Assembly: GCF_030734285.1 (NCBI RefSeq)
Contig: NZ_CP132294.1
Coordinates: 3,968,001 to 4,032,000 of the forward strand
DNA length: 64,000 nt
From: Natronococcus sp. AD-5
Lineage (GTDB): Archaea; Halobacteriota; Halobacteria; Halobacteriales; Natrialbaceae
Direction: 5' to 3'
Shown here: in pieces, positions 71 through 14,035 of the stretch
Layout: the number at the start of each line of letters is the position of its first letter
Numbering within the stretch: the stretch's first letter is position 1
Made by a program: the position numbers and the translations under genes
Notes under the pieces: model-generated
What the model was told of the DNA's origin: nothing
The model's database searches: none
Seen by the model: the letters and a program-made list of their open reading frames with translations, nothing else

Positions 71-144
71 GGGCCAATAGCTCAATCAGGTTGAGCGCCA
101 CTCTGATAAGGTGGAGGCTCTCGGTTCAAATCCGAGTTGGCCCA
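71..144 (+). tRNA. tRNA-Ile (anticodon GAU)
   Basis: A full cloverleaf can be folded. The acceptor arms GGGCCAA and TTGGCCC pair, with A144 as discriminator. The anticodon loop is CTGATAA with anticodon GAT, and the T arm is TCGGTTCAAATCCGA. An A/T-rich box (CTTAAAC near 32-38) upstream is the likely promoter. The last bases of the gene are the attachment core of the island that follows. Confidence 0.97.
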
Positions 145-195
145 CTCAGCTTCTGCACGCTTCTTAGACACCCGGAAACGCTAGGTTTAGCGTTC
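131..195 (+). repeat. attL: tRNA-Ile 3' end plus left end of element 1
   Basis: The 18-base core at 131-148 (TCCGAGTTGGCCCACTCA) is identical to 4462-4479. The match continues without gaps, but with mismatches, to 195. Both copies contain TTCTTAGACACCCG (161-174 and 4492-4505) and AGGTTTAGCGTTC (183-195 and 4514-4526). This is what is expected at the left end of a tRNA-integrated element. Confidence 0.85.
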
Positions 196-257
196 AAAAG
201 TTCCGTTCACGGCGATCGAGGAAATCGGTGCCCCCTCGGTTTCGCCGTTTAGTTGAT

Positions 258-857
258 TCAGGTTTGAACGCGGGTCGCCTCAGTAGAATTAAAACCATCC
301 AATTTAGCCCAACCGTCCACTATTGATTTGCACTTTTTACATACCATCACTTTCTCCTCGCCGAGATCTAAAGATAGCTTAAAAGCTGAAAAGGCAACCG
401 CCGATTTATATGATACTTCTGTCAGGAAGTCTGGAGGGTGGTCACAGATGGTAACCAATTCGTCAGGGATTATTATTTCCTGTCCAGCACGCAATTTCTT
501 TAGTTTGAGCGCTCGATCATCAGGTTCTATTTCCTTGTGATCTTCGTACTGATCATAAGGTGTATAGAAACAAGGATATTCAGGATCCTCTAAAGGAAGC
601 TCTGAGGCTCTAGTAACCCACTGATATGCAGTGACAGTATAAGGTGCAGATCGGTACTCAAACCGCTTCCTAGCATTTGGATGTGATTCGATACTATCAT
701 TCAATCTAGCTTCAGCTTGCTCAAATTCTCCATCTGTACCCTCGACAGAATGTATGGTTCCTGGAATGGCTCGAATATATTCAGGGTCTGGCACGACGAG
801 TAGGATTTTGTCACCCTCGTCAGGTACACTTGGTTCCCCACCGCTGAATAACATCAT
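258..857 (-). CDS. hypothetical protein of island element 1
   Basis: This encodes 199 residues that I do not recognise. The gene is clearly richer in A/T than the core chromosome and uses codons such as ATA, TTA and AGA, which fits horizontally acquired DNA. The N-terminal half is acidic. The C-terminal part holds a single C-x2-C (VCKKC near residue 172) and an isolated Cys-His pair (CDHPP), which could be half of a metal site. No signal peptide or membrane segment is visible. A TATA-like TTCTTATAC about 26 bases before the start supports a leaderless start at 857; a second ATG follows directly at 854. It is divergent from the ATPase gene, so the 200-base gap probably carries both promoters. 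Function unknown. Confidence 0.6.
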   Translation of the reverse strand: MMLFSGGEPSVPDEGDKILLVVPDPEYIRAIPGTIHSVEGTDGEFEQAEARLNDSIESHPNARKRFEYRSAPYTVTAYQWVTRASELPLEDPEYPCFYTPYDQYEDHKEIEPDDRALKLKKLRAGQEIIIPDELVTICDHPPDFLTEVSYKSAVAFSAFKLSLDLGEEKVMVCKKCKSIVDGWAKLDGFNSTEATRVQT

Positions 858-978
858 TTTGTAGACGTTTGTTTTCTCGTATAAGAATCAACTTGGTTGA
901 CTCGCTTCAGCGCCAAGTGATTCACCGGTTCCGATGATCGGGCTGTGTATTCCGTCTTTTGTACCAACGGTCGAATAG

Positions 979-1008
979 CGTACTTCGAAGTACGATACTC
1001 TGGAGTAT
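979..1008. promoter_or_regulatory. two adjacent palindromic operator-like sites
   Basis: CGTACTTCGAAGTACG (979-994) is a perfect 16-base palindrome. ATACTCTGGAGTAT (995-1008) is an inverted repeat of six-base arms around TG. Both fit the pattern TACTYYGRAGTA, with centres 15 bases apart. They lie just upstream of the TATA box of the ATPase gene and between two divergent genes, so a dimeric regulator probably binds here as a pair. Confidence 0.65.
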
Positions 1009-1022
1009 GATTATGGGAAGTA

Positions 1023-1030
1023 TTATATTT
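1023..1030 (+). promoter_or_regulatory. TATA box of the ATPase gene
   Basis: TTATATTT is centred about 26 bases before the ATG at 1052. This is the spacing for a leaderless haloarchaeal transcript, and it decides the start codon over upstream in-frame alternatives. Confidence 0.65.
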
Positions 1031-1051
1031 GGCACTACTGTATCGGAGACT

Positions 1052-2443
1052 ATGCCAGAGTTCGTGAACCGAACGGAGGAGCTCTCGCGTCTTTACAAAC
1101 TCTACGAGTCGGATGATGCGGAGTTGGCGGTGATTTTCGGACGACGACGACTCGGGAAAACCGAACTCGTCAAGCAGTCCCTCAAAGGATACGACGATGC
1201 GGTGCTCTATCAGGCGAAGCAAAAAACGAGTGCGCTACAGCTCCAGCAGTTCGTCGAGGTCGCTTCGGACGCGTACCCGGGAATCACGCGAATCCGCGAA
1301 GAATGGGAGTCTATCCTCGAATATCTCGCAGATCAGGACGCGATCGTCGTCCTCGACGAATTTCCGTATTTAGTTGAACAAGACGAAAGCCTCCCCTCCG
1401 TTCTGCAGGCGATGTTCGATCACGAACTCGACGACTCCAGTGCCACGTTCGTCCTCGTCGGTTCGTCGATCAGTATGATGGAAGAAGCCGCGCTGTTGGG
1501 AAACAGCCCCCTGTACGGCCGCTCGTCGTTGAAACTGGATATCCGGCAGCTCCGGTTCGATGCGGCGATGGGATTCTTTCCGGAGGGCTACACGGCTGAC
1601 GAGCAGGTATTAACGTGGGGAGTCTTCGGTGGCGTTCCGTACTATCTCGAAGAGGTGGATCCAGAGGCCGATCTCGGCGAGAATGTCCAGCGAACGATCC
1701 TCTCACGGCACGGAACGCTGCACGACGAACCCGACTACGTGCTCCGAATGGAACTCACGGAACCGACGCGGTACTTTTCGATTCTAGAAGCGATCGCGGG
1801 CGGAAGCACGAGTCGAAACGAGATCGCCGGAGCGACGGGTATCGATTACAATCAACTATCGAAATACGTGAATCGGCTCTCTCGGTTGCGACTGGTCGAT
1901 CAACACGTTCCGGTTACCGAACGAAAGGAGCGGACCAAGCGAAGTCGCTACCGCATCCGTGACCAGTTCTTCCGGTTCTGGTTCCACTTCGTCTACGGAA
2001 GCGGTGACAGGTACGACGATTTCGGAGACGAAGCGTACGAGACGCTCATCGAGCCGGGACTCGCGGACTTCGTAAGCGACTCGTTCGAGGATCTCTGCGG
2101 TTCCGCTCTTCGAACGCTGTATCCCGAGTATACGATCACGGACGTCGGTCAGTGGTGGTACCAGGAGCACGAGGTTGACGTCGTGGGTCTGACGAACGAG
2201 GACGCGCTGATCGCTGGAGAGTGCAAATTCCAGCGGTCGCCGTTGGATTACGACGCGTTCTCGAAGCTTCAAACTCACGTGAATGAACTTCGATGGACGC
2301 CGGCTGGAGGCGGAGAGCGGACGCACGAGTACGCGTTATTCTCTCGGAGCGGCTTTACGCAAGCCGTAGAGGACGCCGCGGCGGAACGAGATGATCTGCG
2401 GTTGTTCACCGTCGGCGAGGTCGTAACAGCGCTAAAATCATAG
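1052..2443 (+). CDS. archaeal ATPase (MNS clade) with DUF234-like C-terminal domain
   Basis: This 463-residue STAND-like archaeal ATPase opens with the family signature FVNRTEEL. Walker A is GRRRLGKT at residues 30-37, and Walker B is VVLDEFPYL near 100-110. A winged-helix segment follows near residues 250-300 (EIAGATGIDYNQLSKYVNRL). The C-terminal third has the DUF234 pattern: RYRIRDQFFRFWFHFV, then EVDVVG and GECKF, which look like a PD-(D/E)xK nuclease fold. Proteins of this family are common in archaeal mobile DNA, and their biological role is mostly untested; nucleic-acid remodelling, toxin or defence roles are possible. It has its own promoter with two palindromes upstream and is followed by the DNA glycosylase gene on the same strand. 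Family assignment is firm, function is not. Confidence 0.88.
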   Translation: MPEFVNRTEELSRLYKLYESDDAELAVIFGRRRLGKTELVKQSLKGYDDAVLYQAKQKTSALQLQQFVEVASDAYPGITRIREEWESILEYLADQDAIVVLDEFPYLVEQDESLPSVLQAMFDHELDDSSATFVLVGSSISMMEEAALLGNSPLYGRSSLKLDIRQLRFDAAMGFFPEGYTADEQVLTWGVFGGVPYYLEEVDPEADLGENVQRTILSRHGTLHDEPDYVLRMELTEPTRYFSILEAIAGGSTSRNEIAGATGIDYNQLSKYVNRLSRLRLVDQHVPVTERKERTKRSRYRIRDQFFRFWFHFVYGSGDRYDDFGDEAYETLIEPGLADFVSDSFEDLCGSALRTLYPEYTITDVGQWWYQEHEVDVVGLTNEDALIAGECKFQRSPLDYDAFSKLQTHVNELRWTPAGGGERTHEYALFSRSGFTQAVEDAAAERDDLRLFTVGEVVTALKS

Positions 2444-2630
2444 CTGCAAGTGCCGGTGGATTAGTGCCCCCTACAAGGTGCACATCTCTAAATATCTTCG
2501 TCGCGGTTCCATTTTCGTTTTCTCGCTCCGCTTATGCGCTGAATTTCGAGGACTCCGGTACTGAGTGTGTAGTCGCCGCGTTCCAGAGACGGCTGACTTC
2601 CTAAGTACGATGGAGGGACCAGGGACCCGT

Positions 2631-3287
2631 ATGACCGATGATGACGGCGACGAATTCGTCGATACCCTACTGGAGTGGTACACTGACAATGGACGCCACG
2701 ATCTCCCGTGGCGCGATCCGAACGCTACGCCGTTCGAGATCCTCATCGCCGAGTACATGCTCCAGCAGACGTCCGTGGAACAAGTTCTCGGCGTCTACGA
2801 AGAGTTCGTAGGAAAGTACCCGACGCCGGCGTCGATCGTCGATGCGGAATCCGACGAGTTCGGTGAAGATCTCGAACCACTCGGCTTGCACAAGCGGACG
2901 GCGTACGTTGAGAGAGCATCCGAGCAGATTATCGGGCAGTACGACGGTGAGGTGCCAAACAGGCTGGACGAACTTCTCGACCTGCACGGGGTCGGCGAGT
3001 ACACCGCGGCGTCAGTGCTCGCCCACGCCTACGACGGTGACGTCGCGGCCGTAGATACGAATGTTGCGAGGATACTGGCTCGCGTGTTCGGCCTCGAAAC
3101 GGAAGACGAACCCGATGCAAGGGAAAACTGGGAACTCGCGGAGCGCTTGGCTCCATCGGATAGGTGCGGAGATTTCGTCCACGCGCTCATCGACTTCGGT
3201 GCGAGCGTCTGTACGGCGTCGAACCCGAACTGCGAGGGGTGTCCGGCCAGCGGACTCTGCGAGTACACCGACACGGAACACGACTAA
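2631..3287 (+). CDS. Mig/MutY-type HhH-GPD mismatch DNA glycosylase
   Basis: This 218-residue base-excision repair glycosylase has the EndoIII fold. LPWR is at 25-28 and the glutamate of AEYMLQQT is E41. The helix-hairpin-helix GVGEYTA (120-126) carries Y124 where EndoIII has its catalytic Lys, and the catalytic Asp is D142 in VDTN. The Fe-S loop is C194-x6-C201-x2-C204-x5-C210. The Tyr-Asp spacing of 18 matches the family. The protein lacks the C-terminal MutT-like domain of MutY, and its length and its segment WELAERLAP...CGDF resemble the archaeal T:G glycosylase Mig. The likely substrate is therefore T or U opposite G, but A opposite G/8-oxoG cannot be excluded. An in-frame ATG at 2610 would add seven residues; 2631 is preferred because homologous sequence begins there. 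Confidence 0.85.
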   Translation: MTDDDGDEFVDTLLEWYTDNGRHDLPWRDPNATPFEILIAEYMLQQTSVEQVLGVYEEFVGKYPTPASIVDAESDEFGEDLEPLGLHKRTAYVERASEQIIGQYDGEVPNRLDELLDLHGVGEYTAASVLAHAYDGDVAAVDTNVARILARVFGLETEDEPDARENWELAERLAPSDRCGDFVHALIDFGASVCTASNPNCEGCPASGLCEYTDTEHD

Positions 3288-3361
3288 GAAAACGAATTGA
3301 CCCAGCTGCAGCGGTAACCTGAGAAACAATTCTGTTAATAAATTGGGGTAGAGTGACCCAG

Positions 3362-4362
3362 TCAGATGTTATCGAGGTGCGAGCGTCGCTGCTCTAACTT
3401 CACTTCCTCAGACCGTCGGTCGTAGTGCTTATCCAAGATGCTTCGGCTCACGTCCATTCGATCGCCGACGACGTCGACCGGAACGTCTTCCGTCAGAAAG
3501 TGAGTAATGCTTCCTCGGCGAACAGCGTGCGGAGTCACTGCTTCGGGGCACCTTGCGTCCGTATCCTTCTCGCAATCCGGGCACTCCTCATCGACGTAAC
3601 ACGGGGCCGTGACGTCATAGATGTAGCGCCGCATACTGCTTCTGGAGAGGCGTCCGACCTGGCTCGTAAGCAGTGGCTTGCGTCCGGCGTCGTCCGTCAG
3701 GTCGTTACGCATGTATTCGATGTGGTCACTTAGCAAGCGGGTGAGGTCCGGCGAGATAGCTACGAGACGTTCACCGCTGGACCCGTTTTTCAACGGTGTC
3801 CCCGTCTCGGGTCGGTGGTTCAGGCTCAAGAATCGGTCGTCGAGATTGACGTCGTGCACGTCGAGAGCCTTGGCAGCACCGATCCGCATCCCTGTCTCCC
3901 ACAACAGTGCGAGCACGATATGTTCGATCGACGCGTAGTAGAACTGCCTCAGGTACGAGAGAATCTCTTCCGCGCGGTCGCTCTCTAGCAGTTCGTCGCG
4001 CTGCTGATCTTCCGGAGGAACCTTCGGAACCATCACTTTCGTGTACAAATTGGGATCGACCGCTTCGATCGTTCCACACCAGCGGAGAAACACCCGGAGG
4101 TTGCTCATGTTCGTCTGGAGCGAAACCGCGTTGAGATTCCCGTCTTCCTTTCGCCAGAGACGGAACTCGTGGAGGTGTCATCCGGTAAGCTCGTTCATAT
4201 TCTCGATACCGTTCTCTTCGCACCAGCGCACGAAGTGGTTCATCCGGTACCGGTGCCCCGGACTGTACGCTCCATCGCCTGGCTCGTTTTGTAGTCGAGG
4301 TACAGTTCTTGTGCCGTGCGCGGATCGATCGGTTCTAGATCGTGATTCCCGTGTTCGGACAT
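3362..4362 (-). pseudogene. tyrosine recombinase (XerC/D-like integrase), broken
   Basis: The original integrase of element 1 is in pieces. Reading from ATG at 4362 (MSEHGNHDLEPIDP) the frame is lost near 4250-4275. It continues in another frame as HRYRMNHFVRWCEENGIENMNELTG, hits an in-frame TGA at 4178-4180, and then stays open to 3362. The intact 248-residue distal part holds most of the catalytic domain: GMRIGAAKALDV, TPHAVRRGSITHFL (the H-x2-R box) and the nucleophile region LDKHYDRRS. The N-terminal part is a SAM-like core-binding domain. The gene points away from the attachment core at 4462-4479 with its start about 100 bases from it, as in other haloarchaeal tRNA-integrated elements. 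An internal start at 4108 could yield a shortened product without most of the arm-binding region. Confidence 0.85.
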
Positions 4363-4367
4363 GGTTA

Positions 4368-4479
4368 TCTCCGAATCCCAACCGAACGGAAACCACCCGA
4401 CTGCGACCGGTTGATAGATGCGTTCAGTCGGCGAACGGACCGGTAATTTTCTCGGAGTATTTCCGAGTTGGCCCACTCA
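4368..4479. repeat. right end of element 1 (integrase promoter region plus att core)
   Basis: The segment from the integrase start to the att core resembles 13823-13929 with about one small gap. Shared blocks include GAATCCCAAC, AACCACCCG, CCGGTTGA, GCGTTCAG and TTTCCGAGT. The 18-base core at 4462-4479 is an exact copy of the tRNA-Ile 3' end. Confidence 0.75.
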
Positions 4480-4526
4480 CTTCCTGAACGGTTCTTAGAC
4501 ACCCGATCTCGTCAGGTTTAGCGTTC
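4462..4526 (+). repeat. internal att site and left end of element 2
   Basis: This aligns without gaps to 131-195: an exact 18-base core followed by diverged but collinear sequence. A rough similarity in GC-rich blocks continues to about 4590 (compare 196-250). It marks the join between two tandem elements. Confidence 0.8.
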
Positions 4527-4777
4527 TTCCGTGCCGATCGTAGTGGTTGCCCGTTTCGGCGCCCCCGGAAATTCGCGTTTTAGATGTCGAGACTATCTTC
4601 GACGCGGGTGCTCCCAACGTGCAAGAGGCGACGCGTTTCACGCGCGTCACGAGCGACGAAGTCCTCGTCGAAGACGGCGCCGGCACCGTCCGACAGGCCG
4701 CTTCGAGTGCATCGTCCGTCCGTGAACTCGGTTCCCACTCGTCGGCCGTCGACCGCCGTGGGATTCAGTGCAGGCTC
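4527..4777. other. non-coding left flank of element 2
   Basis: I see no convincing gene here. A short open frame on the plus strand (about 4547-4804, with RVLDVETIFDAG) reads like protein for roughly 40 codons but matches no family I know and is followed by low-quality sequence. It may be an eroded gene. Confidence 0.35.
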
Positions 4778-4903
4778 CTACTCAAGATCGGTGTCCGCCG
4801 ATAGCGAATCATACAGCTCCGAAAGACAATCATAGAATTCCGCCAGTTCGTTCCCGACCTCCTCGTATACCACAACCCGATTCCGCCGGCCGATATCAAC
4901 CCA
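4778..4903 (-). pseudogene. possible 3' fragment of a lost gene (regulator-like)
   Basis: On the minus strand 41 codons read GRRNRVVVYEEVGNELAEFYDCL and end in a stop at 4778. The charged start followed by an amphipathic C-terminal helix looks like the tail of a small winged-helix regulator. Upstream the frame is interrupted by a stop, although another frame (GTLETLLG) may continue it. Low confidence; it could be chance. Confidence 0.25.
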
Positions 4904-4984
4904 GCAGCGTCTCTAAAGTACCGTTACTGTTCGGGTGGTTCGAAGACGTTGATTCTAAGCCCTCCCCCTACAGTGGCTGTAAAT

Positions 4985-5635
4985 ATGACCTCGGCCGATC
5001 TCGTTGATGCGTTCATCTCTACAAAAGAGACTCTCTACGAAACGGGTATCGAGGATGACTTCTTTCTGGATCTCATCGCCGCGCGCTTAGTGGTAGAGCG
5101 CGTAGGTGAGGCGAATAATCGAGACTGGTGGGATTCTCGGGTCTTGTCCGAGACGGGGCGAGCTCGACTCTCAGAAGTAACGCCGAAAACACAATTGCAA
5201 TCCCGGATCAAGCTCGCATCGAAAGTCGGTCGGAAAGCGGAATCGGACCGGCTGTCAGCAGATGCGATCTCCTTGTTCTCGTTCGGTCCGCGAGTCGAAT
5301 CTCGAGTTAAAGCTGCTATTGAGGAGATCGAATCCGCGGACAAGTGCTCTTTGGGAACCCTTGAGAACCTCTCTGTTCAATCGTTGGACGAAGGGTGGAC
5401 AGACCAGCTTATCGAACAGACTGCCTCAAACAGTACCGCCGCAGCTGGTTCCAGGACCGAACCAGCTGCAGGTCGTTCGTTCCGCCTCGACGATAGCGAG
5501 TATACGCAGTCCGAAATCGAAGCCGAAAAACGGCGGCTTCTCACGACGCTCTTGCAGGGATACGGGTACAGCACGGATCGTCTCCGAGTGCCGTACTACC
5601 CGCTCGCGCCGGAGCTCAAATCGGAAAACGCGTGA
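4985..5635 (+). CDS. BrxE-like BREX protein (C-terminus possibly frameshifted)
   Basis: The first gene of the BREX operon encodes 216 residues. The segment DWWDSRVLSETGRARLSEVTPKT (residues about 37-59) matches the WW-x-S-x2-LS-x2-G-x3-L-x4-P-x-T pattern I associate with the BrxE family; the role of BrxE in BREX is unknown. Next comes a basic stretch, then SLFSFGPRVESRVKAAIEEI. ATG 4985 is chosen over 4949 because the extra residues are unlike the rest and a TATA-like TTCTAA lies about 30 bases upstream. The frame ends in TGA at 5633-5635. The next frame, however, runs on with protein-like sequence (REYEKRGSTERLLAKHDT...) to a stop at 5709-5711, which overlaps the brxB start at 5701. A one-base shift near 5610-5635 has therefore probably removed about 25 C-terminal residues. 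A BrxA-like identity is less likely. Confidence 0.6.
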   Translation: MTSADLVDAFISTKETLYETGIEDDFFLDLIAARLVVERVGEANNRDWWDSRVLSETGRARLSEVTPKTQLQSRIKLASKVGRKAESDRLSADAISLFSFGPRVESRVKAAIEEIESADKCSLGTLENLSVQSLDEGWTDQLIEQTASNSTAAAGSRTEPAAGRSFRLDDSEYTQSEIEAEKRRLLTTLLQGYGYSTDRLRVPYYPLAPELKSENA

Positions 5636-5700
5636 ATACGAGAAGCGCGGATCGACAGAACGACTACTCGCGAAACATGACACGATAGAAGACCTGATAG

Positions 5701-6271
5701 ATGGTTTCTGATTTCCAAGCACGGCTCGAGGAAGCCGAACGACTCGTCCGCTACGACAGGGAGACAGTTGGAAAGCGAGCCGGCGTCCCGTTCATCGTGT
5801 TCATCTACGATCTCGCTAACGAGATCGAAGTCGATGAGGAAGTCCGAAACCTCATCGACAAACTAGAGTACCACGACCAGACGGTCGCAGGAATCGATAT
5901 GCGTGAACTGGTCTTCAACGTTCTCGAGGATTGAGGTATCCTGGAGAACGTGATCGATCTCGAACGCCGCGATCGGAACCGGTTACTCGATGGACTGGAA
6001 TCATCACTGCTGGATGACGGTGAGATGGGAACAATTAGCTTCGGCTATCGCAACACGGGCTGAAGACGCTGATACCGTGATAGTTCACTGAATGGGTATT
6101 CTGTCCCCGTTCACCAGTGCTTCCACGCTGATGGGACAATTGGAGACGAATACGTCGGACGACGCGTCCAACGTGTTCTCTTATCCGGCAAAAGCGGATG
6201 ATAAGAGTTTAAGATTCCTCGATAAATCTGAAGAAACATATTACCGCGCAAGGATAATCGGACATGAGTAA
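5701..6271 (+). pseudogene. brxB: brxB (DUF1788) pseudogene with three lesions
   Basis: A full-length BrxB of about 190 codons can be rebuilt. The first 77 codons (MVSDFQARLEEAERL...VPFIVFIYDLANEIEVDEEVR...MRELVFNVLED) end at TGA 5932-5934. The same frame then continues (GILENVIDLERRDRNRLLDGLESSLLDDGEMG). Near 6022-6036 the frame shifts to LASAIATRAEDADTVIVH, followed by TGA at 6089-6091, and then MGILSPFTSASTLMGQLE...SLRFLDKSEETYYRARII to TAA at 6269-6271. The end overlaps the brxC start by eight bases, as expected for an intact operon ancestor. The order and the closing motif (SLRFLD...YYRARI) are those of DUF1788. BrxB is a conserved BREX component, so its loss should impair the system unless another copy exists. 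Confidence 0.8.
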
Positions 6272-9200
6272 CACTATCACTTCACACCAAATCAACGAAA
6301 TCTTCTACCGGCCGGTCAACCGAAAGATCGATCGGGTCGTCAAAGTCGGTAACGACGATCCGAACGTCGTCGAGAAAGAGCTCGAAGAATATATCCTCAC
6401 TCCACAGCTCGAACGACGCTTCTCGGACGCCTTAGAGGCCGTCATCGACACGGAACACGCACAGACGGAAGATGTCGGGATGTGGGTCTCCGGCTTCTTC
6501 GGCTTGGGCAAAAGTCACTTCATGAAGATCCTCGGGCAGATCCTGGCGAACCGCGAGTTCGAGGACACACACGCGGCCGAGATGTTCCGGGATCGGATCG
6601 AAGGCAACGAGATGCTCGATGGAGCGGTCTCGTCCGTCACGCAGAAGTTCGATTCTGAGGTATTGATGTTCCAGATCGGCGCGAAAGCCGACGCGTCCGG
6701 GAGCGAATCTATCACTGAGATCATCCACCGCGAGTTCACTATCTCCCGTGGCTACGCTTCGATGCCCTGGGTCGCACAGATGGAACAAGAACTCGAATCA
6801 CGCGGCGTGTACGACGAGTTCGTCGACGCCATCGAAGCGAACACCGGGAAAGACTGGACGAAAGCCCGTAAAGACGCGATGTTCGTCCGGTCGGACATGG
6901 AAACGGCAGTAGTCGAAGTCACCGACGAATTCGACGACGAAGATGACGCGGCCCGCGCCATCGACGACGTCCAGAACAACGTCCTGATCAACGCTTCTAC
7001 GCTCGCTGAAGACATCGTCGAACACGTCGAACAACGAGAAGCCGAAACGGGGAACAGCTGCCGGTACTTCGTCTTCATTGACGAAATCTCACGGTTCATC
7101 GGCGACGATGGCCAGCTCCTCCTGGAACTCCAGAGTATCGTCGAGGAATTCGGGCGGAAAGGCGAAGGGAAGGTGCTCCTCGGGGTCACCTCTCAGGAGC
7201 AGCTCCAGCAACTCATTCCTGGCGTCCTCGAGAAGGAAGCCGAGGAGTCGAAGGTCGTCGACCGGTTCCCGCACCGGTTCGACCTTACCTCCGAAAACCT
7301 CGATAAGGTCGTCCGCGACCGCGTCCTCAGTAAGAAAGGCGAAGCTAGAGGCGTGATCGGTGAGCTGTATGACCAGCATGAAGGCATCCTGTCCGCCAGG
7401 TACAAACTCGACTCGAGTCAGAGCCTGAAACCAATCACTCGGGAGAACTTCATCGACTGCTATCCGTTCCTCCCGTACCAGCTCGACACCCTACCGGAGA
7501 TATTCAAAGCCCTCGGGAAAGGATCAGACGACCAGCTCGCGGGGAGTGAGCGCACACTGATCGACGTCACGCAGAGCGTTCTGAAAGACGAGGACCACCT
7601 CTACAACGACGAACTCGGGGCGCTCGTCACGCTGGATATGATCTTCGACGAGATCAGTAACGATATCCCCAGCAGTGACGTCAAGTCGATCCGCGAAGCG
7701 AAACCGAAAGACGCCGATCCGGAAACCGCGCGGCGCGTCCTCAGATCACTTTACCTCCTCCAGCAACTCCCGTGGATCCCAAACACGGTCGACAACATCG
7801 CGACCTCGCTCCAAACAGAGCTCGGGCCCACACAGCAACTGGAGGGTGATGTCGAAGACGCGCTCGATGCGCTCGTCGATGCCGGTTTCGTCGGCCGGAG
7901 CGAAGAGGGATACCGATTCCTCAGAGAGACCGAGCGCGAACTCGAAAACGAGATCCAGTCGATTGACCCCGGCACTGGCGACATCCGTCGGTCATCAAAA
8001 AAACGTTTCCTGAACGATATTCTCGACGAGACATCGCGGATTAACTACGAGGGTCAAACTTTCCAGGTGAACCTGAGCATCGATGGCGAAGAGATCACGT
8101 CGAAGGGTCACATCGACCTCAAGACTTACTCGCCGATCTACCAGCGATACGAAGACGTTGACCCGGATGAATTGAAAACACGGAGTTTCAGCGAGGATGG
8201 AACGCTATACTGGGTCGCTGATGACGAGAAGCAACACGACATCTACGAGAAGCTGAAATCGATCCTTCAAATTCGCACCGTCGTCAAGAAAAAACGTGGC
8301 GACGAGCTCAGCCGAGAAGAGCAGGAAGCACTCGGTCGAAAGCAGGAGGACCTCCAGCGCCTCCGTAACGAGGTCGACCGCGAGTTCAAACGAAGCTTCC
8401 AACGCGGCACTCTCATCTACAACGGCGACGCCGAAGAGTTCGACACGACGAGCACCTCCCTCGCGTCGCTCGTCGCCCGGAAGACTGACAACGCCATCCC
8501 GAAGGTCTTCACCCGCTTCAAACACGGCTCCGCGTCGGTCAGGGACCGACACATCGAGCAGATCTTCGGGGACCTTCACGGCTCGTCGAACCCGTCGGTC
8601 TTCTCCGAGCTGGGCGTCGCACGGGACGGCGAACTCATCGCCGAGGCGCGCATCGCTGCAGAAGTCGAAGACGAGATCCAGCGCCGCGAGGAGGCAGGCG
8701 AATCCCGCTCCGGAAGCGATCTGATCGATCACTTCGCCGAACCGCCGTACGGGTGGAGTCGAGAGGTCGTCCGACTCGCCGCGGCCGTGCTTTTCCGAAA
8801 CGGGTCGATCGTCCCGACGTACGAGGAGCGAACTTACGGGACGTACACGGAGGACGGCGCACAGGAATTGTTCACGCAGGTCACGAAGTTCAAGTCTACC
8901 TCGTTCGACGAGCGCGAAACCGTTGACATCGACACTCGGACGGACGCGAAGCAACTGCTCGACCGCCTGTTCGACCGCAAGGTCAAGTCGACCGACCAAG
9001 CCGTCGACGAGGGCATTCGAGAGGAAGCGAACGAGTGGGTCTCGACCACCAGCACGCTCCTCTCGCAGCTCCGGCGGGTGGATTTCCCGCTCGCGGACGA
9101 CGTCGAGCAGTTCCAAACCCGGCTGAACAATCCGCGTCAACAACCCACGTCGGCCAAGCGCATCAAGCAGTTTGTCGAGTTCGAGGACGAGCTCGAAAGC

Positions 9201-9908
9201 CTCACCAAAACCGCGAAGGACGTCGCCGAGTTCTGCGGCGAGGCCGGTGGCGAAAACCGTCTCAAAGAGTACGAAACGATACGGCGCTTCATCACGACCG
9301 AATGGGACTCGCTCGTTGACGAGGCGGACGACCACCCCGTGCACGTCGACGTCAGCGACGATGCCCGCGACGCCGCCGACCGCGTCACGAACACGCTGGA
9401 CACGGAGGGCGTCATCAATCAGTGGAACAACGTCAAGACGGACTACCGAACCGCAGCAGAAGCCTTCACTGCCACGTACGAAACCTTGTACGAGAAACGC
9501 TACGAGACGTACAGCGAATCCATCGAATCAGTCAAAGCGTACGCCGGTTCCGACATCGACGAGGACGATCTCGACGCGGCGCTGTCGGACCTGACGGAAC
9601 GGCAGGGTGACGGATCGGTCGATCTGGATATCTCAAAGAAGAACCACATCAACCCGAACCCGTCGCTCACCCGTCTCATCGAACACATCCAGACCGTCGA
9701 CTCGTACGAGAACGGTGCAAAAACCGAAATCGACGATCTGGAAGATGATGACGGTGGAACGGTCCGTGAGAACGTGGACATCGACAACATCTTTGGAGAC
9801 GTCATCGTTACAGGCTCTGACGACATCGAGGGACCGATCTCCGACCTGCGGGCAGAGGTCGAAGACCTTCTCGACCAAGACGGTGACGTCGAGATCCGAT
9901 TCCGGTAA
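6264..9908 (+). CDS. brxC: BREX system P-loop protein BrxC
   Basis: This encodes 1214 residues, the usual size for BrxC (the PglY counterpart), the large ATPase of BREX phage exclusion. The N-terminus NEIFYRPVNRKIDRVVKV is family-typical. Walker A is GFFGLGKS at residues 77-84, Walker B-like FVFIDEISRF lies near 270, and the sensor-like GVTSQEQLQQ follows. The C-terminal half is long, acidic and helix-rich. The frame is intact. ATG 6264 overlaps the end of the ruined brxB frame, indicating translational coupling in the ancestral operon. BrxC works with PglX, PglZ and BrxB in the BREX complex; with brxB broken and no pglZ in the island, the protein may be without partners here. Alternative: a stand-alone ATPase kept for another purpose. 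Confidence 0.92.
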   Translation: MSNTITSHQINEIFYRPVNRKIDRVVKVGNDDPNVVEKELEEYILTPQLERRFSDALEAVIDTEHAQTEDVGMWVSGFFGLGKSHFMKILGQILANREFEDTHAAEMFRDRIEGNEMLDGAVSSVTQKFDSEVLMFQIGAKADASGSESITEIIHREFTISRGYASMPWVAQMEQELESRGVYDEFVDAIEANTGKDWTKARKDAMFVRSDMETAVVEVTDEFDDEDDAARAIDDVQNNVLINASTLAEDIVEHVEQREAETGNSCRYFVFIDEISRFIGDDGQLLLELQSIVEEFGRKGEGKVLLGVTSQEQLQQLIPGVLEKEAEESKVVDRFPHRFDLTSENLDKVVRDRVLSKKGEARGVIGELYDQHEGILSARYKLDSSQSLKPITRENFIDCYPFLPYQLDTLPEIFKALGKGSDDQLAGSERTLIDVTQSVLKDEDHLYNDELGALVTLDMIFDEISNDIPSSDVKSIREAKPKDADPETARRVLRSLYLLQQLPWIPNTVDNIATSLQTELGPTQQLEGDVEDALDALVDAGFVGRSEEGYRFLRETERELENEIQSIDPGTGDIRRSSKKRFLNDILDETSRINYEGQTFQVNLSIDGEEITSKGHIDLKTYSPIYQRYEDVDPDELKTRSFSEDGTLYWVADDEKQHDIYEKLKSILQIRTVVKKKRGDELSREEQEALGRKQEDLQRLRNEVDREFKRSFQRGTLIYNGDAEEFDTTSTSLASLVARKTDNAIPKVFTRFKHGSASVRDRHIEQIFGDLHGSSNPSVFSELGVARDGELIAEARIAAEVEDEIQRREEAGESRSGSDLIDHFAEPPYGWSREVVRLAAAVLFRNGSIVPTYEERTYGTYTEDGAQELFTQVTKFKSTSFDERETVDIDTRTDAKQLLDRLFDRKVKSTDQAVDEGIREEANEWVSTTSTLLSQLRRVDFPLADDVEQFQTRLNNPRQQPTSAKRIKQFVEFEDELESLTKTAKDVAEFCGEAGGENRLKEYETIRRFITTEWDSLVDEADDHPVHVDVSDDARDAADRVTNTLDTEGVINQWNNVKTDYRTAAEAFTATYETLYEKRYETYSESIESVKAYAGSDIDEDDLDAALSDLTERQGDGSVDLDISKKNHINPNPSLTRLIEHIQTVDSYENGAKTEIDDLEDDDGGTVRENVDIDNIFGDVIVTGSDDIEGPISDLRAEVEDLLDQDGDVEIRFR

Positions 9909-9993
9909 CGTACACACGAACGCCGGATTCGACTTTTGTCAGGATGTTTTGCTGTCCACTCCAGTAGACACCCCCGACAGTTCGATCTCCCAC

Positions 9994-10002
9994 AAATATA
10001 AG
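9994..10002 (+). promoter_or_regulatory. possible promoter of pglX
   Basis: AAATATAAG in the 197-base gap between brxC and pglX would start a transcript near 10025, leaving a leader of about 80 bases. That leader contains a seven-base inverted repeat, CGGGTGG (10036-10042) and CCACCCG (10068-10074). Weak evidence; pglX could instead be read through from brxC. Confidence 0.35.
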
Positions 10003-10105
10003 ATACGTCGACTGCTTGCCGATTGTATGTCATCGCGGGTGGAAATCACGACACGGTGCGCCGCCATCCACCCGTTTCGTGGCGGTACGCGTCCCTCTGC
10101 TACCC

Positions 10106-13100
10106 ATGTCCACAACGCACGGTCAGCCTGGCCTCTCTTCGGAGCAGCGCTCGACGATTCGAAACACCATCCTTGACGCACGCCAAACCCTCGAAGACGA
10201 GCTCCGACGTCAGCTCGAAAAGTACGGCATCTACGAGAACGAGACGCTCCCACTCGACGACCTGACGCACCTCTCTGCAGAAGAAATATACATTCGCCGA
10301 TCGCTGGATGCCACCATCGAGCGGGAACTCGAATCGACGAAAGGCGATCTGGGGCGGTCGATCACCAACTACGTCCGCGAAGCGACGAAGACCTACCTCA
10401 ACCGGTTCGTCGCGCTGAAAACCATCGAAGTTCGCGGGCTCGTCGAGGAGACGATCACTGAGCGGCCAGAGTACGGCAACCGGTCGTATATGCACCACAC
10501 CGTAGCCGAAATTGCCGGTGAACTAACGAACGCGCCAGACGACGGCTTCGATGCCGCACTTGACCTCGCGTACCAGGAGATCGGTGCGGAAATTCGGATG
10601 ATCTTCGAGGACTCCGAACACACCGCTATTGACCTCGACGCCCACGTGCGGGAAGAAGTCCTCGACGAACTGGACGCGATTGACGACAGGGCTTGGGAGA
10701 GCGACGAGGCGCTGGGCTGGGTGTACCAGTACTTCGGTGAGGAAGAACGCGAGGAGATCGACGAGCGCGTCGACGACGAAAACTACAAAATCGCGGGAAC
10801 GGACATCGCCACGAAGACGCAGCTATTCACTCCTCGCTACATCGTCGAGTGGATGGTCGATAACTCGCTGGGCCGGACATGGCTCGAAATGCACGGCGAG
10901 CGGACCAGTATCGATGATAAGGAGACCTGCTTCTATCTCGCTCCCCTGGAAGACTCCCTGATTGACCGTGAGACGAAACCGGTCGAAGAGATTACCGTGC
11001 TTGACCCCGCGTGTGGTAGTGGCCATATGCTCTTCTACGCGTTCGACGTGCTCTACCGGATGTATTTGGAGGAAGGGGAGATTCCAGAAGAGTACATTCC
11101 ACGGGAGATCCTTCGGAACAATCTCTACGGAATCGACATTGACTCGGGTGCAGCACAGATCGCGGCCCTATCCCTGTATCTCAAAGCGAAGGAGAAGTCG
11201 CCGGATGTGACTATCCCGCAGTTGAATATAGTCTCCGCGGACGCCGTGTTAGTCGACGGTGACAGGAAACAGGACGTTTTGGATCGGGCGCGCTCTGAAC
11301 TGGAAGCGGAGATCTTAGAGCAGGTCTGGAAAAGCTTTGACGACATTCGAGAATTAGGAAGTCTCGTAGAAGTTGACGACCGGATAGATAATATCTTGGA
11401 AGAATATCGGGAAACGTTCGAGTCGAAGGGACAAGCGCAGTTCACTGAGGGAGGTAGTCTCACTACCCAGTCGACGTTCGTTTCAGAAGGCCAAGAAGAA
11501 ACGTGGGAGGAGTTCAAAGAGAGTCTGATGCGGAACGTCCGGGAGTTAGCCAGATCGGCATTAGCGCGTGATGACCCGGTCGAAGAAATGTTCGCTGAGG
11601 AAGTTGGGAAGACAGTCGAGGTACTGGATGTTCTGATCGACGAGTATGACGTTGTCGTCACTAATCCCCCTTATTTGCAAAGTAAAAAAATGGGGGGCAC
11701 GTTGAAACGATTCCTGAGGGACAACTACACGGGCAAATCGGATGTCTATGGCGCATTTATCGAAAGGTGCCTCTCGTTTGCGAGGGATGACGGCCATGCC
11801 AGTTTAGTGACCCCTGAGAACTTTATGTTCCTATACTATTTCCGGGGGCTGCGTAAGAAATTACTGAACGAGAGTTATTTTATCGAGGCCGCTCACCTTT
11901 CCCGATACGGATTTGAGCAGCAAAAAGACGCGTATACGATCCCTTTCGTTCTTCGCCCTACAGCACCGGGAGAAGACGAGCCATCTCGATTCTACCGTAT
12001 GACCCACGAACAGGCCGAGTATGAGAACTACGAGGACAAAATATCTGGACTTGAATCGATAGTAGAATCGCTCCGGCAAGGTGAGTCACACAAGGATGTC
12101 TATAATTTTTCACAAAACCGCTTTAAGGATATCGGCCGTCGTCCTTTCGTCTATTGGTTCGGAGAAGAGACGCTTCGGCTCTTTACGGATTATCCAAAAT
12201 TAGAAGACGTAGCTGATGTGAGACAGGGGTTAGCAACTGGAGATGACGAGAGATTTCTCAGAAAATGGTGGGAAGTTGGAGATGAAGACCTCGAGGAGCA
12301 GTATGTCCTCTATCAAAAAAGCGGATCGAAAGAACCGTTCTACGACGTCCCGGATGATTTCTTACTGTGGGAGAACGACGGAGAAGAGATCCGAAATACG
12401 GATGGAGGGAATGGTACACCGAACGAACAGTTCTACTTTACGCCAGGACTCACCTATAGAAACTTTGGTAACTACCTGGTTGCACGTCTATTTACGGAGG
12501 AGATGGTATTCAGTCAGACTGCTATTTACGTACAGTCAGAAAATATTACTAGTGAATACTTGCTAGGAGTACTAAACTCGATACTGTATCGGTTTATTGC
12601 TAACGGAATTAACCCCGGACTTCATTTCGAAGCGGGTGATGGAAAGCGATTCCCGATAAAAACGAACCCGGATAACGAGACGGAAGTCGTAGAACACGTG
12701 GAATCCGCGATTCAAGCCCAAAAACAGATCTCCCAGCTGGATGAGCTGAGCGCGGATTTCAGTCCGGAGACGTTCTATAGCGTGGCTTCTGAAGGCGTCA
12801 ATCAGCTACTGCTTGAGGAGGATGTAAACGAATATACGGTTGAACTTATGCAAGGGGTGATCGACGACCTAATTCTCGACGAATACGGAATAACCGAAAC
12901 AGTTGAACAAATGTACGAGAACCTCCCGTCAAATCTATCCAATCTCCCTCAGATCGATCGAATAAGTAAGGTTGATGAGGAGTATACGGCCCCCTTCATC
13001 GAGTTGTCTGACTTAGAATTCGAGGACAAATTAGCTACCCTTTCGGAATCTGATCAGACGGAACTAAGAGCGTTATCGGAGGAGGTGGGATTGAGTCCGG

Positions 13101-13816
13101 TTTCGGTCGCCCAGTTAAGATACGAATACGATCTGTATGATGAGGAAGAGTTGGAGAACGCTGCGGGGAGTGTTTTATCGTTCATTCTGGGCAATACTTT
13201 CGGACGGTGGCATACTGAGATTCCCGAAGCTTCGGACGAAATTGTGGCCTTCGGCTCCTCAACGGTAGGTGAGGTGGAAGAGTTGGTCAAAGAGGGAATT
13301 GATTGTCTGTTTGGTGAATCAGAACAAGCTCGGAAACAGTTAGAAAACCTTCTCGGAAAAGCTCCCGTAGATTGGTTGCGGAGTGACTTCTTCCGTTCTC
13401 ACCACTGTAAGGAGTACAGGCGACGGGGGCAACGAATTCCGATTTACTGGCAACTAGAAAGCCCTGACGGCGCGTTCAGTTGCTTCGTCTACTACCACGA
13501 GATAGATGCGAACACGCTTCCGAAACTCCGTGGTCAGTATCTCGATCCGCGTATCGACGAACTCGAAAACGAACGTAAAACACTGAACGCCCAGACTAGC
13601 GGTGATAACCCCGACAGGGAACTTCTGAGCCGGAAAGAGGAAGTCCAGAATGATCTCGACGACATCGAGGAGTTCCGAGATACCATCGACGAAATGATCG
13701 ACGACGGCGCCACTGTCGACGTCGACAAGGGGATTTGGGAGAACATCAAAGAGTGGGATCAGTACGAGGTTCTCGAAACTGGTCTCCCGAAACTGAAATC
13801 GAGTTATTCGAGGTGA
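10106..13816 (+). CDS. pglX: BREX adenine-specific DNA methyltransferase PglX
   Basis: This 1236-residue N6-adenine methyltransferase marks host DNA at a BREX site and is needed for self/non-self discrimination. The SAM-binding motif I is DPACGSGHMLF, with D at about residue 300. Catalytic motif IV is NPPY at about 520-523, inside the typical block VVVTNPPYLQSKKMGGTLKRFL. The N-terminal 250 residues are helical, and residues about 700-1100 would hold target recognition. ATG 10106 is chosen because family-like sequence starts directly there (LSSEQRSTIRNTILDARQTLE); an earlier in-frame start would add residues that look untranslated. Base composition is mosaic: roughly 11220-13400 is visibly richer in A/T than either end. 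The gene stops eight bases before the repeated right end of the element, and no further BREX gene follows. Confidence 0.93.
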   Translation: MSTTHGQPGLSSEQRSTIRNTILDARQTLEDELRRQLEKYGIYENETLPLDDLTHLSAEEIYIRRSLDATIERELESTKGDLGRSITNYVREATKTYLNRFVALKTIEVRGLVEETITERPEYGNRSYMHHTVAEIAGELTNAPDDGFDAALDLAYQEIGAEIRMIFEDSEHTAIDLDAHVREEVLDELDAIDDRAWESDEALGWVYQYFGEEEREEIDERVDDENYKIAGTDIATKTQLFTPRYIVEWMVDNSLGRTWLEMHGERTSIDDKETCFYLAPLEDSLIDRETKPVEEITVLDPACGSGHMLFYAFDVLYRMYLEEGEIPEEYIPREILRNNLYGIDIDSGAAQIAALSLYLKAKEKSPDVTIPQLNIVSADAVLVDGDRKQDVLDRARSELEAEILEQVWKSFDDIRELGSLVEVDDRIDNILEEYRETFESKGQAQFTEGGSLTTQSTFVSEGQEETWEEFKESLMRNVRELARSALARDDPVEEMFAEEVGKTVEVLDVLIDEYDVVVTNPPYLQSKKMGGTLKRFLRDNYTGKSDVYGAFIERCLSFARDDGHASLVTPENFMFLYYFRGLRKKLLNESYFIEAAHLSRYGFEQQKDAYTIPFVLRPTAPGEDEPSRFYRMTHEQAEYENYEDKISGLESIVESLRQGESHKDVYNFSQNRFKDIGRRPFVYWFGEETLRLFTDYPKLEDVADVRQGLATGDDERFLRKWWEVGDEDLEEQYVLYQKSGSKEPFYDVPDDFLLWENDGEEIRNTDGGNGTPNEQFYFTPGLTYRNFGNYLVARLFTEEMVFSQTAIYVQSENITSEYLLGVLNSILYRFIANGINPGLHFEAGDGKRFPIKTNPDNETEVVEHVESAIQAQKQISQLDELSADFSPETFYSVASEGVNQLLLEEDVNEYTVELMQGVIDDLILDEYGITETVEQMYENLPSNLSNLPQIDRISKVDEEYTAPFIELSDLEFEDKLATLSESDQTELRALSEEVGLSPVSVAQLRYEYDLYDEEELENAAGSVLSFILGNTFGRWHTEIPEASDEIVAFGSSTVGEVEELVKEGIDCLFGESEQARKQLENLLGKAPVDWLRSDFFRSHHCKEYRRRGQRIPIYWQLESPDGAFSCFVYYHEIDANTLPKLRGQYLDPRIDELENERKTLNAQTSGDNPDRELLSRKEEVQNDLDDIEEFRDTIDEMIDDGATVDVDKGIWENIKEWDQYEVLETGLPKLKSSYSR

Positions 13817-13822
13817 TTCTCT

Positions 13823-13929
13823 CGGAATCCCAACTCGACGAAAACCACCCGTTATAGCCGGTTGAAAGAAGCGTTCAGGTTCCGAACGAACATATAATTT
13901 CCCGAACTATTTCCGAGTCGGCTCACTCC
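13823..13929. repeat. right end of element 2 with attR core
   Basis: This aligns with 4368-4479, the integrase promoter region and att core of element 1. The core TCCGAGTCGGCTCACTC (13912-13928) differs from the tRNA-Ile end at two of 17 positions. No integrase is attached: the position where its start codon should be is taken by the end of pglX. Confidence 0.7.
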
Positions 13930-14035
13930 GATACTGATCGGTACTTCGATATCCGACGTTTGCTCGTCTCTCCTCGAGATTACGCCTCTCTATTCGCCGG
14001 GTTAGACGTCATTCGAAGGCGACTGTGTGGTCGAT

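Follow-up and report, generated by a model that had tools for sequence, protein, structure and literature searches.

A probable relic of a type 1 BREX system in a tRNA-Ile island of Natronococcus sp. AD-5

Layout of the locus and of its intact relatives

We analysed a 64,000-nucleotide stretch of the Natronococcus sp. AD-5 genome (NZ_CP132294.1, positions 3,968,001 to 4,032,000; hereafter the window), in which a bacteriophage exclusion (BREX) operon occupies positions 4985 to 13816. Two large genes of this operon, brxC and pglX, are intact, and the genes for several of their partners are broken, reduced to remnants, or absent. The locus contains the following features.

About 4727-4888, minus strand: N-terminal remnant of a divergent Mre11-like gene (tblastn matches reach 46% over 54 residues, E = 1.8e-7)
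4985..5635, plus strand: brxE, intact, 216 residues (NF033447, E = 4e-31)
About 5637-5711, plus strand: 3' end of brxA, ~24 terminal codons (tblastn, 71% over 24 residues and 52% over 44 residues, E = 1e-9)
5701..6271, plus strand: brxB pseudogene, homologous over its full length (5701-6268) and 81% identical in protein sequence to an intact relative
6264..9908, plus strand: brxC, intact frame of 1,214 residues with no stop (NF033441, E = 3e-258)
9998..10015, plus strand: pglX promoter, conserved TATA-box region (alignment of 14 loci)
10106..13816, plus strand: pglX, predicted BREX-1 adenine methyltransferase gene, intact, 1,236 residues (NF033452, E = 2e-222)
13814..13897, plus strand: integrase-upstream remnant adjoining the pglX stop, a putative deletion scar (alignment)

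The original prediction, made from the sequence alone, counted only four BREX genes here; brxE, the broken brxB, and the intact brxC and pglX are confirmed, and the brxA tail and the Mre11-like remnant had been overlooked. The brxA, brxB, and Mre11-like remnants retain the ancestral order. The brxA tail sits directly after the brxE stop codon, and the remainder of this 270-codon gene is deleted. Within brxB there are two in-frame stops (5932-5934 and 6089-6091) and a frameshift near 6032-6039; these three small lesions fall inside 570 bp, with none across ~8 kb of neighboring genes, and brxB also shows excess amino-acid change. Both brxE and pglX end at their native C termini, which rules out shortening of either by the flanking deletions.

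The two large proteins were identified with high scores. BrxC passes the BREX AAA+ ATPase model NF033441 (860 bits; cut-off 400), and PglX passes the BREX-1 model NF033452 (741 bits; cut-off 500) and retains the catalytic and S-adenosylmethionine motifs DPACGSG and NPPY. The pglX frame is open from 10016 to 13816, and its start was placed by homology at the ATG at 10106. From 10027, and at equivalent positions in other loci, a strongly conserved leader, TTGTATGTCATCGCGGG, runs from the pglX TATA box to the ATG and may hold a short upstream frame. Candidate internal pglX stops in four distant relatives proved to be terminal stop codons only.

As the original prediction had proposed, the operon was compared with complete haloarchaeal loci, drawn from samples of 391 (class), 392 (order), and 125 (family) genomes and from a species-level contig scan. 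BrxC relatives, mostly 78 to 90% identical, occur in ~6% of sampled haloarchaeal genomes from many families (25/391; 22/392). All contig-complete relatives among ~25 haloarchaeal loci encode brxE-brxA-brxB-brxC-pglX-pglZ-brxL in that order, with lengths of 270 (brxA), 189 (brxB), 1,214 (brxC), ~1,240 (pglX), 808 (pglZ), and 675 (brxL) residues. PglZ and BrxL of the relatives were named by NCBIfam models, TIGR02687 (below its cut-off) and TIGR02653 (well above); BrxA, which has no NCBIfam match, was named from its operon position. Since the intact relatives end in brxL, this is the last gene to be expected here, and not brxHII, which had been suggested as the haloarchaeal partner and does not belong to this lineage.

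In most intact loci a divergent gene for an Mre11-like phosphoesterase precedes brxE (e.g., 1943-3265 in L029, and equivalents); a text search of a 2026 BREX survey (PMC12839542) found no mention of it. The intact relatives reveal a widespread haloarchaeal BREX layout, a type 1 core plus brxE, usually with the divergent Mre11-like gene. Several otherwise conserved operons (L027, L030, L032, L041, and others) hold variable extra genes between brxC and pglX or between pglX and pglZ, one of which encodes a NucS-like endonuclease (L030, 9567-10562). Contig C3 of another genome, G367, has two BREX copies (L044 and L046) in which brxC is split in both, pglZ in one, and pglX in the other, reflecting either decay or assembly error. 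No second reduced BREX locus was found among the ~25 relatives across these samples and the contig scan, and we rejected the idea of a conserved reduced BREX lineage on this ground.

Missing partners and the integration site

The Natronococcus assembly (5.17 Mb in two contigs, 98.8% complete) was searched with the Pfam PglZ model and with intact PglZ, BrxL, BrxA, BrxB, BrxC, and PglX proteins. Neither the PglZ model nor a relative's protein matched anywhere in the genome; the best match to BrxL was 24% identical and covered its Lon-protease part only (query residues 501 to 659); and the intact relatives' proteins revealed no second brxA, brxB, brxC, or pglX. From the functional type 1 set, PglX and BrxC are present, and PglZ, an intact BrxB, BrxA, and BrxL are lacking. 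For this assembly, the earlier suggestion that the missing parts are encoded elsewhere is thereby excluded.

Two islands lie here in tandem, delimited by a tRNA-Ile gene and three attachment (att)-like repeats; the BREX locus is the second.

71..145, plus strand: tRNA-Ile (GAT), island integration site (ARAGORN)
117..175, plus strand: att-like repeat, copy 1, at the tRNA 3' end
3362..4363, minus strand: left-island integrase (Pfam Phage_integrase, E = 2e-9)
4448..4506, plus strand: att-like repeat, copy 2, at the junction between the two islands
13898..13956, plus strand: att-like repeat, copy 3, at the right end

Two other genomes illustrate the site in other states. In the congener G404 (L115) the same tRNA is followed, ~12 bases on, by sequence matching the window from 13954 onward; because this tRNA runs nearly directly into the match, the site is near-empty and the insert in Natronococcus sp. 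AD-5 spans ~148-13953. In G264 (L114) the same site is occupied by no more than a small element, which has a related integrase region. The left-island integrase is itself disrupted: an in-frame stop lies near 4178, and the frame appears to shift near 4280.

The right end of the second island suggests how pglZ and brxL were lost. Positions 13814-13956 align with 4361-4506, that is, with the upstream region of the left-island integrase plus the att-like repeat, at a score of 130 versus a shuffle maximum of 30. Because this homology begins directly after the pglX stop, we infer from the alignment that a single deletion reaching from the pglX stop as far as the beginning of an integrase gene took out pglZ, brxL, and that integrase.

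The left island also holds an ATPase gene with a DUF234 domain (959-2443, plus strand; PADLOC PDC-S27, E = 1e-41), adjoined by a small unknown gene (258-857, minus strand), and, beside the broken integrase, a gene that by eye resembles an A/G-mismatch glycosylase (2565-3287, plus strand).

Selection and the order of decay

Selection on the window branch was estimated as omega, the ratio of nonsynonymous to synonymous substitution rates (dN/dS), with a purpose-written MG94-type codon model and 17 to 19 taxa. For brxC, omega was 0.093 on the window branch, 0.066 in the background, and 0.089 in the intact sister L066. For pglX it was 0.099 in the conserved N-terminal part (background 0.091) and 0.084 in the C-terminal part (background 0.070); in the middle, specificity region, branch lengths saturate in this branch test. 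Values near 1, which the original prediction associated with an absence of selection on brxC and pglX, were thus not observed (0.093 and 0.08 to 0.10, respectively); recent loss of constraint would look alike. Omega was 0.246 for brxE versus 0.186 in the background, and 0.29 for brxB versus 0.077 (2 delta lnL [log likelihood] = 17.5). With omega raised in brxB and low in brxC and pglX, decay was probably stepwise, brxB being released first, and the release of brxC and pglX was probably late or recent, or did not occur at all.

Expressed as neutral time in substitutions per codon, the estimates allow 0 to 0.05 for the retained genes and about 0.16 (roughly 0.07 to 0.27) for brxB. A separate neutral time for brxB fitted better than a shared one (2 delta lnL = 2.9 to 9.8, depending on the tree and the background used). 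Although brxB offers ~6% of the targets, it holds each of the three small lesions; were the four genes equally neutral over the same period, this distribution would have p ~2e-4 (a post hoc calculation). A stronger claim, that brxB died much earlier, was weakened by the likelihood ratio of 2.9 obtained with the brxC tree and the conservative background, and by the raised brxB omega of one intact lineage, L042.

Open frames in brxC and pglX are by themselves no proof of function, because at a neutral time of T = 0.04 only ~2 to 3 nonsense mutations would be expected in the two genes together (by arithmetic, with a rough figure for the middle of pglX). Their low dN/dS is equally expected under recent loss. 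The window BrxC carries 28 changes at sites invariant across all other copies, compared with 16 in the sister; per branch length, L042 and L043 have equal or nearly equal rates of such change. Two of the 28 hit the ATPase region, S81L in Walker A and Q277R three residues past the Walker B DE pair. Residues 81 and 277 are otherwise conserved as far as the Acinetobacter protein and are changed in the window alone. Some other P-loop proteins accommodate a leucine at the position of residue 81. Judged by sequence, the two substitutions are suggestive, not conclusive, of wear in the BrxC ATPase.

Interpretation and comparison with known systems

In type 1 systems that have been studied, PglX does not act alone. 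E. coli BrxX shows no methylation by itself, either in vitro or in vivo, and none when paired with one other BREX protein; BrxB, BrxC, BrxX, and BrxZ together do methylate (PMC11842806). Deletions in E. coli and Acinetobacter agree with the same requirement (PMC6326788, PMC9122589), and the need of PglX for BrxB, BrxC, and PglZ has been reviewed (PMC13326643). The proteins pair as BrxB with PglZ, a tight complex in bacterial systems, and BrxX with BrxC, a subcomplex that in E. coli copurifies with DNA (PMC11842806). In the window, the B:Z half is gone and the C:X half is kept. Because type 1 PglX, where studied, needs BrxB, BrxC, and PglZ in order to methylate, stand-alone methylation is not expected, and by analogy the remnant would neither methylate nor exclude viruses, and would at most bind DNA.

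We consider it likely that the locus is a recently decayed type 1 BREX system, a dead or dying defense system and not a new compact one, since the genome offers no other copy of the partners required by known systems, which here are deleted or broken. A mobile island with a complete brxE-brxA-brxB-brxC-pglX-pglZ-brxL operon would have inserted at tRNA-Ile as one of two tandem islands and then decayed stepwise: brxB would have gained its stops and frameshift, most of brxA, from the brxE stop to the brxA tail, would have been deleted, and the deletion reaching from pglX into the integrase would have followed the course proposed above. What remains would encode a BrxC-PglX pair plus BrxE, with brxC and pglX still open mainly through late or very recent loss of constraint. 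Recent decay was one of three alternatives offered by the original prediction, and it fits best with the remnants, the scars, the relaxed brxB, and the complete relatives.

Several observations weigh against this conclusion. Across ~7.3 kb, brxC and pglX carry no lesion, pglX retains its promoter and catalytic motifs, and window-branch dN/dS in both genes is close to that of the intact sister; with all three lesions in brxB, this suggests that selection continued to maintain brxC and pglX for a period following the death of brxB. The known requirements for methylation, moreover, derive from bacterial systems and none from a haloarchaeon. The lesion-free frames, the promoter, the motifs, and the low dN/dS also favor an alternative in which selection has kept BrxC and PglX, with BrxE, as a reduced sequence-specific complex after the loss of BrxB-PglZ, BrxA, and BrxL, either methylating without BrxB and PglZ or binding the PglX site without methylating. 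The E. coli BrxC-BrxX subcomplex noted above also speaks for it, as would a persistent PglX-like methyltransferase in Haloterrigena (motif CTGGAG; PMC10609329) if that enzyme acts independently of BREX partners. However, the E. coli methylation experiments (PMC11842806) and the unique S81L and Q277R substitutions oppose it, no second genome among the ~25 examined has such a locus, and recent release predicts equally low dN/dS. We regard a reduced functional complex as unlikely, and the stand-alone methylation proposed earlier as unsupported. If brxC and pglX proved to be active, PglX would be shown to function independently of BrxB and PglZ, contrary to all current evidence.

The apparent death of brxB before constraint on brxC and pglX was lost could also be explained if another BREX copy, absent from the assembly or since lost (e.g., with a plasmid), had supplied BrxB and PglZ in trans until recently, and the two copies on one contig of G367 provide a haloarchaeal precedent. 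The nearly complete two-contig assembly holds no other BREX gene, though, and there is no sign that such a copy existed, making this improbable. A trivial explanation would be that the operon is complete and that errors in sequencing or assembly produced the brxB lesions or the gaps, given that a single assembly was available. Errors of this kind would hardly be confined to brxB, raise its amino-acid change, leave clean scars at the sites of the brxA and pglZ-brxL losses, and remove the missing genes from the whole genome; we consider this explanation very improbable. Under recent decay, the locus is a snapshot of BREX death, with BrxB apparently the first to go and the BrxC-PglX pair the last. 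A literature search found no account of an incomplete BREX system.

The closest known systems are intact haloarchaeal type 1 loci such as those of Halogeometricum limi (L049), Halorubrum sp. SD626R (L051), Haloarcula japonica (L058), and Halostella pelagica (L054). In these, brxE, brxB, brxC, and pglX have the order and strand seen in the window; the window BrxC is 81 to 90% identical to theirs and PglX 57 to 68% overall, with its N-terminal region and C terminus conserved. They differ in having intact brxA, brxB, pglZ, and brxL. BrxC and PglX are also homologous along most of their length to the E. coli and Acinetobacter type 1 proteins (9zdx, E = 2e-80; 8c45, E = 4e-69), but two of the four proteins needed for methylation there are absent from the window, and BrxE lies outside the six conserved type 1 proteins. 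Type 6 BREX operons likewise begin with a BrxE-family gene; however, the window BrxE scores 52.6 bits against a BREX-6 cut-off of 80, its PglX favors the BREX-1 model (741 bits versus 460), and the intact relatives carry brxL after pglZ rather than brxD/brxHI, for which no separate search was made. Finally, the Haloterrigena enzyme HG5 (CTGGAG; PMC10609329), compared by description only, is a PglX-like N6-methyladenine methyltransferase in a haloarchaeon, whereas the window pglX encodes a predicted methyltransferase within a decayed operon.
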